A DNA stretch of 64,000 bases, taken from Miltoncostaea marina (GTDB lineage: Bacteria > Actinomycetota > Thermoleophilia > Miltoncostaeales > Miltoncostaeaceae). The stretch lies in contig NZ_CP064655.1 in assembly GCF_018141525.1 (NCBI RefSeq), positions 1,302,001 through 1,366,000 on the forward strand, in the 5' to 3' direction. Below the pieces are notes generated by a model. The model saw nothing but the letters and a program-made list of their open reading frames with translations. It searched no databases and was not told the origin of the DNA. Numbering within the stretch: position 1 is the stretch's first letter; the number at the start of each line of letters is the position of its first letter. The position numbers were made by a program, and so were the translations under genes. This document shows, in pieces, positions 6,152 through 10,198 of the stretch.

Positions 6152-6184
6152 GCGGCGAGGATACGGCGCCCCGCCCGCGCTCAG

Positions 6185-6200
6185 GGCCTGTGTATGAACT
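6185..6200 (+). repeat. IS left terminal inverted repeat
   Basis: GGCCTGTGTATGAACT. It pairs with the right end with one mismatch at position 3. A TCA trinucleotide lies two bases outside it, the likely target-site copy. Confidence 0.88.
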
Positions 6201-6254
6201 GATCCCGGTACCGATCAGGGATCTCTGCCACTGCACCGATGGAAACGGTGCGTC

Positions 6255-7343
6255 ATGGCCTACCCGAGCGACCTCACCGATGACGAGTGGCGCCTCGTCT
6301 GCGACCTGCTGGAGCCCGCATCGGGCCGGCGGGGCCGTCCGCCTGCCATCTCGCGGCGAGCGATCGCCAACGCGATCCTCTACCTCGCCCGTACAGGGTC
6401 GCCGTGGCGATACCTGCCGTCGGAGTATCCCGCCTGGGGCACGGTCTGGCAGCAGTTCCGCCGCTGGCGCGACGCAGGCGTCTGGGCGAAGCTGCTCACC
6501 CGCCTTCGCCAGATCGCCCGGCTGATGAAGGGCCGCACGGTCGACCCCTCGATGCTGATGGTCGACGCCCAGGTCGCGCGTGGCGGCCGCGCCGGCCCGT
6601 CGTTCCATGAGCCGGGCGGCCGCGGCGGTCGCACCAACGGCGCCAAACGCACGCTGCTACTCGACATCACCGGCTCGCCGGTCGCGGTGCGGGTCGACTC
6701 GGCCCGACCACAGGATGTACGCGTCGCTCGCGAGCTCCTCGAGGCGGTGCTCGACGCCATGCCGAGCGTCAGGGCGATCGTCGCCGACCGCGGCTACCGC
6801 GGGCTGGCGGCGATGTGCGCACGCCGCGGCATCGCCCTCGACATCAAGGCGCCACCGAAGGGCGCCTCGCGCGTCATGCTCGGCATCCGGGGCCTCGTCC
6901 GAACCCGCCTCGCGCGCGCCATCTCCGACGCGGCCTGGGGCGACTTCGAGCGCCAGCTCGACTACAAGCTGGCCTGGCGCTCGGGCGAGCTGATCCGCGC
7001 GCCGCGTTGGCTGCCCTCGACCCGGGCCTGCTCGGCCTGCGGCGAGGTCGGCCCTGCAGTGCCGCTCTCCGAGCAAACCTTCACCTGCTCAGGATGCGGC
7101 CACTCGGCCGACCGCGACACCGACGCGGCCGCCGTGCTCGCTGCCTGGGCCGACGGCCGGATCACCCTGGATGCCGAACTCGAGGACCGTCGCCCGGAGG
7201 TGCCGGGAGACGCGAAACGCTCGCTCCGCGGGGAGCCCGCCCGGGAGGTGCCAGCTGGCATCCCTGGACGCCCCGGCGATCGGACGAGGAGCCCGCTCGC
7301 GGGCAGGGCGGAGAAGGCCGCCGTGTCAGAGCTCGCGGCCTAG
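6255..7343 (+). CDS. Chimeric IS5 transposase / TnpB C-terminal fusion
   Basis: A 362-residue fusion. Residues 1 to ~205 are an IS5-type transposase: the DUF4096 N-terminus (YPSDLTDDEWRLV), first catalytic Asp in MLMVDAQ (D104) and second in VADRGYRG (D178). The expected C-terminal block with the catalytic Glu is absent. From ~207 the protein becomes a TnpB tail: GLVRTRLARAISDAAW, then a four-Cys zinc ribbon (C259, C262, C278, C281) and the last RuvC motif DRDTDAA, usually DRDxNAA. The earlier RuvC Asp and Glu of TnpB are missing. Each catalytic site is therefore incomplete; the element may be moved only in trans. There is no frame break at the junction. Confidence 0.85.
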   Translation: MAYPSDLTDDEWRLVCDLLEPASGRRGRPPAISRRAIANAILYLARTGSPWRYLPSEYPAWGTVWQQFRRWRDAGVWAKLLTRLRQIARLMKGRTVDPSMLMVDAQVARGGRAGPSFHEPGGRGGRTNGAKRTLLLDITGSPVAVRVDSARPQDVRVARELLEAVLDAMPSVRAIVADRGYRGLAAMCARRGIALDIKAPPKGASRVMLGIRGLVRTRLARAISDAAWGDFERQLDYKLAWRSGELIRAPRWLPSTRACSACGEVGPAVPLSEQTFTCSGCGHSADRDTDAAAVLAAWADGRITLDAELEDRRPEVPGDAKRSLRGEPAREVPAGIPGRPGDRTRSPLAGRAEKAAVSELAA

Positions 7344-7347
7344 CCGG

Positions 7348-7363
7348 AGTTCATACACAGACC
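7348..7363 (-). repeat. IS right terminal inverted repeat
   Basis: Read on the minus strand this is GGTCTGTGTATGAACT, matching the left end at 15 of 16 positions. The TCA two bases outside it is both the presumed target duplication and the stop codon of the thioesterase gene. Confidence 0.88.
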
Positions 7364-7364
7364 G

Positions 7365-7778
7365 TCAGCCCGCCTTGCGCGCCACGCCGGCCTCGAAGCG
7401 CGCCCGGTCCACCACGAAGCGGCGGTGGGTGCCCGCGCAGATGCGGTCGCGCTCGTCGTGCGCCTCGGCCGAGAACAGCAGGGCGCGGCCGTCGACCTGC
7501 TCGAGGCGCACCCGGGCCACGACCTCCATGCCCGGCGGCGTGGCCGCGTCGTGGCTCAGGTCGACGTGCACGCCGAGCGACATCTCGCCCGCGTCCAGGT
7601 GGTCGGCGATCGCGCGGATGCAGGCCCACTCGACGAAGCCGACCATGAAGCCGGTCGCGAAGACCTCGGGCATCGCCGCGAACTCGGGCGACTCGGGGTA
7701 GAGGCGGGGCACGGTCTTGCCGGGCGGCACCACGAACCGCAGCTCGTGGGTCAGCCCGGGGGCGAGCGAGGGCTTCAC
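7365..7778 (-). CDS. Hotdog thioesterase, fluoroacetyl-CoA thioesterase-like
   Basis: A 137-residue single hotdog domain. The order of motifs (N-terminal strand, PEVFATGFMVGFVEWA helix, SLGVHVDLSHDAATPPGM, then AEAHDERDRICAGTHRRFVVD) matches the FlK-like acyl-CoA thioesterase group, which hydrolyses short acyl-CoA esters. The start is a GTG. The IS element abuts its stop codon, so the coding sequence is intact but the natural 3' end has been displaced. The substrate is unknown. Confidence 0.82.
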   Translation of the reverse strand: MKPSLAPGLTHELRFVVPPGKTVPRLYPESPEFAAMPEVFATGFMVGFVEWACIRAIADHLDAGEMSLGVHVDLSHDAATPPGMEVVARVRLEQVDGRALLFSAEAHDERDRICAGTHRRFVVDRARFEAGVARKAG

Positions 7779-8567: not shown

Positions 8568-8641
8568 GGTGGACGTAGCTCAGCTGGTAGAGCTCCTGGT
8601 TGTGGTCCAGGCGGTCGTGGGTTCGAATCCCATCGTTCACC
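8568..8641 (+). tRNA. tRNA-His (GTG)
   Basis: A full cloverleaf can be drawn: acceptor GTGGACG pairs with CGTTCAC; the anticodon stem CCTGG/CCAGG holds the loop TTGTGGT with anticodon GTG; the T arm contains GTTCGAATC. An extra 5' G (position -1) faces C73, the identity element of tRNA-His. A -10-like TATGCT lies about 26 bases upstream. Confidence 0.96.
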
Positions 8642-8659
8642 CCTCGGAGCCGGTTGCGG

Positions 8660-8741
8660 GCGGGTGTGGCGGAACCGGTAGACGCGCTAGGTTTAGGTCC
8701 TAGTGGGGCAACCCATGGAGGTTCGAGTCCTCTCACCCGCA
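8660..8741 (+). tRNA. tRNA-Leu (TAG)
   Basis: Acceptor GCGGGTG pairs with CACCCGC. The anticodon stem CTAGG/CCTAG encloses TTTAGGT, giving anticodon TAG. A long variable arm marks this as a class II tRNA, and GGTTCGAGTCC is the T arm. It lies 18 bases after tRNA-His and 32 before the trigger-factor ATG, so the three may share a transcript. Confidence 0.96.
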
Positions 8742-8773
8742 TACAACCGATCCGCCCTGCGGCGGGGGAGCAC

Positions 8774-10198
8774 ATGCCGCTGACCGCCGAGGTGACGACC
8801 CTCGAGGAGAACCGCGTCCGCCTGGACGTCGCGGTCCCCGAGGATGAGGTCCAGAAGCAGATGGACCGCGCGATCCGCAAGCTGGGTCGCGAGGTCCGGG
8901 TGCCGGGCTTCCGGCCGGGCAAGGCCCCCGCGGAGGTGATCCTCCAGCGGGTCGGCCAGGACGCGGTCGTGCAGGAGATGCTCCGCAGCGCGCTCGGCGA
9001 CTGGTACTCGCAGGCCGTCGACGAGACCGGCATCGTGCCGATCGACGACCCCGACCTGGCGCTCGACGACGTGCCCGACGAGGGCGACCTGACCTTCAAG
9101 GCGACCGTCCAGGTGCGCCCGAGGGCGACGCTCGGCGACTACGCCGGCGTCGAGGTCGGCAGGGCCGAGCCCGAGGTTCCCGAGGGCGCCCTCGAGGAGC
9201 AGCTCGAGCGCGTGCGCGAGCAGGCCGCCCGCCTGACCCCGGTCGAGCGGGCCGCCGCGCAGGGCGACTTCGTGGTCATCGACTTCGACGGCAGCTCCAA
9301 GGGCAAGCGCCTGAAGAACGCCACGGCCCGCGACTACCTCGTGGAGCTGGGCGGCGGCCGCTTGGTGCCCGAGTTCGACAGCGCCCTGACCGGCATGTCG
9401 GCGGGCGAGTCGACGACCTTTCCGGTCACCTACGGCGACGAGGACGGCCGGCCGGAGCTGCGGGGCCAGACCGTCGAGTACACGGTCACCGTCAAGCAGG
9501 TGCAGGAGAAGCAGCTGCCCGAGCTGACGGAGGACCTCGCGCTCGAGGTGAGCGAGTTCGACACGATCGACGAGCTGCGCGCCGACCTCGAGCGGCGCCT
9601 GCGGGAGGCCGCCGAGGCCCAGGTGGACGAGCTCTACCGGCGCATGGTCATCGACGCGGTCACCGAGCGCGCGACGGTCGACGTGCCCGCCGTGATGGTC
9701 GACCGGCGCGTCGGCACGATCCTGCAGCAGACCGCCAACCAGCTCCCCCAGGGCGTCTCGTTCGAGCAGTACCTGGCCGCCACCGGGCGCACGCTGGAGC
9801 AGGTCGTCGAGGAGCTGCGGCCCGACGCCGAGATGGCGATCCGCCGTGAGCTGGTGGTGGAGGCGGTCGCGGACGAGCAGGGCGTCGAGGTCTCCGACGA
9901 GGAGATCGAGGAGCAGGTGCGCGCGGACGCCGAGGCCACCGGCCGCAGCGTCGACCGCCTGATGCACGACCTGCGCCACCACGGCGGGTGGGAGGCGCTG
10001 CGGCAGGACCTGCGGCTGAAGAAGGCCGTGGACCACCTGATCGAGAGCGCGACCGCCATCCCCATGGCGCAGGCCGAGGCCCGCGAGGCCCTCTGGACGC
10101 CGGAGGACGAGCGCCGGAAGGCCGCGGAGGCGCGCCCGGAGGCGGAAGGGAAGCCGGCGCCCGCCGGGAAACTGTGGACGCCCGGCGACCCCCGCTAG
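8774..10198 (+). CDS. tig: Trigger factor
   Basis: A 474-residue ribosome-bound chaperone and peptidyl-prolyl isomerase acting on nascent chains. The ribosome-binding signature GFRPGKAP lies in the N-terminal domain; the FKBP-like domain (~160-245) shows [10 protein letters not shown] and the [12 protein letters not shown] strand; the C-terminal helical cradle follows. A charged low-complexity tail ([18 protein letters not shown]) closes the protein. The ATG sits after a GGGGGAG ribosome-binding site. It heads the usual tig-clpP-clpX set. Confidence 0.97.

Follow-up and report, generated by a model that had tools for sequence, protein, structure and literature searches.

A transposase-TnpB fusion in Miltoncostaea marina as a probable deletion derivative of an IS5-family transposon carrying tnpB

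Why does a single reading frame of Miltoncostaea marina begin as an IS5 transposase and end as a TnpB protein? TnpB is an RNA-guided DNA cutter ancestral to Cas12. In bacteria it has been described in elements of the IS200/IS605 (Y1) and IS607 (serine recombinase) types, which are unrelated families, or alone. IS200/IS605 elements encode a Y1 (HUH) TnpA and have neither terminal inverted repeats nor a target duplication. The frame in question is a 362-aa ORF with an ATG start at positions 6255-7343 (+) of the window, by which we mean the whole stretch of 64,000 nucleotides that was analysed. Residues 1-207 belong to an IS5-family transposase (6255-6875, +) and are joined in one frame to residues 317-471 of a parent TnpB (6876-7343, +).

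The transposase part matches the Pfam families DUF4096 (E 1.2e-26) and DDE_Tnp_1 (E 1.9e-7), both up to residue 184, and the IS5 model NF033580 covers residues 3-189. Its final codon, V207, occupies 6873-6875. D104 and D178 of the DDE triad are kept; the third residue, E217 in the parent, is gone, which leaves the triad incomplete. The TnpB part begins just past the RuvC-II glutamate and contains the zinc ribbon (Cys259, Cys262, Cys278 and Cys281), the RuvC-III aspartate (D288) and a C-terminal extension, with a match to Cas12f1-like_TNB at residues 228-293 (E 1.6e-15). The RuvC site is also incomplete, as it lacks D227 (RuvC-I) and E316 (RuvC-II) of the parent. The ORF, Pfam and NF033580 thus agree with an earlier note, which had described an in-frame fusion of an IS5 transposase to a four-Cys TnpB tail, with two of three DDE residues and both catalytic sites incomplete, and had placed the junction at about 6873, right to within 3 bases.

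The ORF lies within an element of 1181 bp (6184-7364). The terminal inverted repeats, GGGCCTGTGTATGAACT at 6184-6200 (+) and CGGTCTGTGTATGAACT as the reverse of 7348-7364 (-), are identical at 15 of 17 positions, in keeping with their description as almost perfect. Their 16-base core occurs twice in the whole window, where 0.18 occurrences would be expected by chance with up to 3 mismatches. The element is bounded by a duplicated TCA (6181-6183 on the left, 7365-7367 on the right) from a C-TCA-G target, and the right copy is also the TGA stop of a convergent gene (7365-7778, -). A presumed omega-RNA scaffold would span 7160-7364 (+), overlapping the TnpB C-terminal extension; its extent is taken from actinomycete relatives.

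An intact parent is present in the same single-contig genome. In a genome search with the window element, query positions 1-710 and 709-1199 flank a 1.16-kb insert at G000:C1:139537-141879 (copy A), and this insert completes both transposase and TnpB. Copy A is 2343 bp long, has the same ends and C-TCA-G target as the window copy, and consists of a 71-bp leader, a transposase of 258 aa, a 58-bp gap, a TnpB of 471 aa and 21 bp to the element end. Because the two halves of the window copy flank the insert, the window copy (copy B) is copy A minus 1162 bp, with parent positions 1-696 and 1857-2343 retained. The junction (6873-6879, GTC followed by ATGC) coincides with a 4-bp microhomology, ACGC. 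Copy A reads GTCACGCCG and GAGACGCTCGG on the two sides and the window reads GTCATGCTCGG; the junction formed at ACGC, and one C changed to T afterwards.

We read the window feature as a non-autonomous copy that arose by internal deletion from an IS5-family (DDE) transposon whose second gene is tnpB, at a probability of roughly 0.88. The intact parent, in this genome and in Miltoncostaea oceani, and the loss of about 1.16 kb with microhomology are established by sequence comparison. The frame across the junction would simply have happened to stay open, as a chance outcome of the deletion, and the fused protein most probably has no function beyond, at most, binding to the ends of the element. 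A non-autonomous chimera, one of the possibilities raised in the earlier note, is the right reading: the intact IS5-TnpB element from which it derives by internal deletion lies elsewhere in this genome. What that reader could not see is the main point: transposase and TnpB had been partners in one transposon before the deletion.

Both proteins of copy A have the residues that the fusion lacks. The transposase has the full triad (D104, D178 and E217) and scores 161.8 bits against NF033580 (cut-off 110). The TnpB has D227, E316 and D397 together with Cys368, Cys371, Cys387 and Cys390, matches HTH_OrfB, OrfB_IS605 and TNB in Pfam, aligns to the solved ISDra2-type TnpB structures 8h1j and 8bf8 (E about 6e-40) closely enough to locate its catalytic residues and passes NF040570 (guided_TnpB) with 209 bits (cut-off 100). 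Its best curated model is IS607_TnpB, at 316.2 bits and under the cut-off of 350; IS200_TnpB gives 183.6 bits, under its cut-off of 425. Neither a Y1 (HUH) nor a serine recombinase TnpA was found in copy A, whose sole genes are those for the DDE transposase and TnpB.

The same architecture, 88% identical and with both genes intact, is found on the M. oceani plasmid NZ_CP064357.1, where the NCBI annotation has the IS5 transposase and TnpB as separate genes. Comparison of copy A with the M. oceani element shows purifying selection on both genes (dN/dS 0.137 in the transposase, 0.217 in the TnpB core). Over the presumed RNA region, in the TnpB C-terminal extension, the value is 0.63, and protein constraint in Miltoncostaea is relaxed there. 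No further carrier of a Miltoncostaea-type element, besides the two intact copies, was found among 399 genomes of the class, taken from a larger set.

The TnpB proteins nearest to that of copy A elsewhere come from Mycobacteriaceae, Promicromonosporaceae and others, are mostly 37-47% identical and also lie in IS5-type transposons. In these actinomycete relatives both ends, CTAAAGC[CG]TGTCGAACAACT, were located in 20 loci. In 19 of these, an IS5-type transposase, or what is left of one, lies between tnpB and the left end and is encoded on the other strand from tnpB. At several loci the transposase gene has been lost on the tnpB side, with the far end kept, so that here too the deletions are internal. 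A third lineage, from another family of the phylum (genome G715), encodes transposase and TnpB in the same direction between ends that are perfect over 18 bp; the orientation of the transposase gene relative to tnpB thus varies among lineages. A tree of 50 TnpBs places every IS5-associated TnpB in one 40-row clade (support 100/99), from which ten other TnpBs of the phylum are separate; the clade includes members with no detectable transposase. An IS5 transposase on a Rhodococcus plasmid, 37% identical, has no adjoining TnpB, which shows that related transposases need not come with one.

Copy A might instead be an IS5 element into which an ordinary IS607- or IS200-type TnpB element inserted by chance, the composite then having moved passively. 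TnpB-only elements are common in bacteria and IS607_TnpB is the best model for this TnpB, although below its cut-off. We nevertheless consider such a composite very unlikely. It has been kept in two species with both genes under selection; tnpB ends 21 bp from the IS5 end, into which the right-end RNA region runs; and the segment lengths of copy A leave no room for a Y1 or serine recombinase. The actinomycete and G715 elements, moreover, are built alike between IS5-type ends of their own, and their TnpBs form one clade with that of copy A.

The window copy is accompanied by other deletion copies of the parent, of which copy C retains positions 1-818 and 2021-2341, copy D 1-394 and 2228-2343, and copy E 1-49 and 2040-2343. 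All five copies (A-E) have the C-TCA-G target with a TCA duplication, and for four of the five insertions there are empty sites in sister species, where TCA is single. These comparisons confirm the target duplication suspected at the window copy. Five copies at distinct sites, together with empty sites in relatives, imply past transposition activity only. Copy E is a 343-bp mini-element (L017, 1076-1418 in reverse-complement coordinates), with 49 bp of left end and 304 bp of right end, and is hardly more than the ends and the presumed guide-RNA region. A sixth remnant, 74% identical, consists of the right-end (RNA) region only, with neither ends nor genes (L018, 1016-1171; G000:C1:716515-716670).

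The window junction occurs once in the genome and is absent from three other genomes of the genus and from viral contigs. It had been supposed that further copies might reveal a lineage sharing this junction; the search found none, and found the other deletion copies of the parent instead. Since copies C, D and E each have their own junction, the junction does not define a lineage, and derivation by deletion is a recurrent process.

These observations weigh against a protein with a new activity, the other possibility raised at the outset; an IS5 end-binding front with a nucleic-acid-binding TnpB ribbon might, for example, serve as a regulator or a dominant-negative inhibitor of transposition. 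The frame is open across the junction, and the window copy has too few substitutions of its own (7 synonymous, 6 non-synonymous) to show decay. A third of random deletions would retain the frame, however, the DDE glutamate and the RuvC-I and RuvC-II residues are missing, and the junction is single and unlike those of the remaining deletion copies. We regard a functional fusion as slightly less probable again than a chance composite. Least credible is an assembly misjoin of an IS5 copy to a TnpB copy at about 6873: a parent with both halves elsewhere in the genome makes a collapse conceivable, but private substitutions on both sides (4 synonymous and 3 non-synonymous in one half, 3 and 3 in the other) and a shared target duplication with empty sites in relatives make it unlikely, and the genome is complete in one contig, the flanks are unique with the duplication intact on both sides, the breakpoint has microhomology and three more deletion copies of like kind are present.

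A test for an omega-type RNA near the 3' end had been suggested. Over the final 200 nt of the actinomycete elements the DNA is strongly conserved, whereas the protein is not. Their consensus structure has 32 pairs, 14 of them with double changes, and a covariation score of 0.266, compared with 0.125 in shuffles (0 of 500 as high) and at most 0.064 in slid controls. A covariance model of this right end had hits at the expected position in 22 of 24 additional TnpB loci, and an omega-RNA is well supported in the actinomycete family. Covariation in relatives was used instead of single-sequence folding because the right end of copy A alone folds no better than shuffles (z -0.7); that of the M. oceani element does fold better (z -4.4).

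The actinomycete model does not recognise the whole Miltoncostaea right end, even with filters off. The match is confined to the 16-nt last hairpin, which in copies A, D and E and in M. oceani lies at the expected place and scores 12.2 bits (E 0.013 for 21.6 kb); an unrelated stretch scores higher, at 14.7 bits. In these four elements the hairpin reads GGCC-GAGAA-GGCC. Copy C has GGCG-GAGAA-CGCC, a compensated pair, and the window copy (7305-7320, +) has GGCG-GAGAA-GGCC, in which one pair is broken; the model does not recognise the window hairpin. An Rfam scan of the parent and the M. oceani element returned no omega-RNA family. The test is thus positive for the family, through covariation and model matches, and weak for this genome's own copies: copy A plausibly has an omega-RNA, and that of the window copy may be damaged.

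With the architecture and conservation of the IS5-TnpB element established, its activities can be sketched by analogy. The transposase of copy A would insert at C-TNA-G with a 3-bp duplication and could act in trans on the intact ends of deleted copies. TnpB would be loaded with the right-end RNA, the flanking DNA serving as guide, and would cut element-free insertion sites; repair would then copy the element back, giving retention or homing as for ISDra2 and IS605. The C-TCA of the target duplication would double as the TAM. ISDra2 TnpB is an RNA-guided nuclease that uses a right-end RNA (PMC8612924), a further study describes the guide RNA (reRNA) as processed from TnpB's own mRNA (PMC10278001), and TnpB has been proposed to act as a gene drive in plasmids (PMC11870625). 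Since DDE cut-and-paste elements do not undergo the donor loss of peel-and-paste transposition, a retention role for TnpB is proposed here by analogy. Having retained the right-end RNA region, the window copy could be carried along by both enzymes, although one pair of its final hairpin is mismatched. A broader proposal seems to us evenly balanced: that bacterial DDE (IS5) transposons make up an old family, the third, in which TnpB naturally resides across Actinomycetota. Their TnpB would take as its TAM the target that the transposase itself uses, C-TNA-G or C-TA-G and often a stop-codon site, and would copy the element into empty sites, with small deletion derivatives such as the window copy persisting through their ends and guide-RNA region by means of both enzymes in trans.

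Several features of these elements resemble ISDra2 of the IS200/IS605 type (PMC8612924): the D-E-D triad and zinc ribbon of TnpB, a right-end RNA (here predicted) that overlaps the 3' end of tnpB, and a target-site motif that adjoins the element. Unlike IS200/IS605 elements, copy A has a DDE rather than a Y1 transposase, terminal inverted repeats and a 3-bp duplication (apparently 2 bp in the actinomycetes), and its TnpB falls below the IS200_TnpB cut-off. The best score of its TnpB (316 bits) links it to IS607, yet that score is also under the cut-off, and copy A has terminal inverted repeats and a duplication and lacks a serine recombinase. With IS5-family insertion sequences (NF033580; e.g. 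ISEc61, transposase 36% identical) it shares the DUF4096 DDE transposase, short terminal repeats and a TNA-type target; ordinary members differ in having no tnpB as a second gene and no predicted right-end RNA inside the element. The window copy and copies C-E resemble MITE-like non-autonomous derivatives in keeping ends and losing genes, and the TnpB-only forms of the actinomycetes resemble IS1341-type elements. The ends here are IS5-type, however, and the derivatives retain the RNA region instead of tnpB.

Fanzor1 is carried by eukaryotic and viral DDE transposons, including IS4-type elements (Bao and Jurka 2013; PMC3627910), which likewise have taken up a TnpB-family protein. They differ from copy A in their eukaryotic or viral hosts, their IS4-type affiliation, their 8-bp duplications and their cargo, which is Fanzor1 and not a bacterial TnpB. 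We found no bacterial IS5 or other DDE element with TnpB in the literature searched, which consisted of openly accessible articles with few preprints, although extensive surveys of TnpB could include such cases; within that literature, an IS5 transposon with TnpB is undescribed in bacteria. The IS5-TnpB elements would thus be the bacterial counterpart of Fanzor1 in eukaryotic DDE transposons. As at least three lineages of DDE transposons with target duplications contain TnpB and a predicted guide RNA, carriage of TnpB is not tied to peel-and-paste transposition. The elements also offer uncharacterised TnpB/omega-RNA pairs, whose TAMs are predicted to be C-T(N)A-G, and allow a direct test of whether a cut-and-paste element gains from carrying a homing nuclease.

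All five insertions in M. marina fall precisely on the TGA stop of a convergent gene (C-TGA-G); tnpB or the right end faces this gene, and the duplication leaves its stop intact. This siting follows in part from the target motif, as no stop context is more frequent in the window than CTGAG (7 of 44 genes predicted with a crude gene finder); given that gene finder, siting beyond the motif is only suggestive. The actinomycete loci (L020-L066) have an apparent C-TA-G target with an apparent 2-bp duplication, and on both sides the element ends turn this CTAG into a stop, TAA. In roughly half of these loci, the frame in the right flank that would end at the site is open for at least 100 codons, more often than the other two frames, hinting that stop-codon siting may be a family habit.

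The flanks of the M. oceani element differ: the left one reads C-TCA and the right one TAA-G, so that either the duplication has mutated or the element has recombined. One G715 copy (L138) has the reverse arrangement, C-TAA on the left and TCA-G on the right. A cobalamin riboswitch (Rfam RF00174, 81 bits) lies near copy A (L014, 61-245, -). In the window, 1.2 kb away from the element, adjacent genes for tRNA-His and tRNA-Leu (8569-8741) immediately precede a trigger-factor-like gene (ORF 8600-10198).
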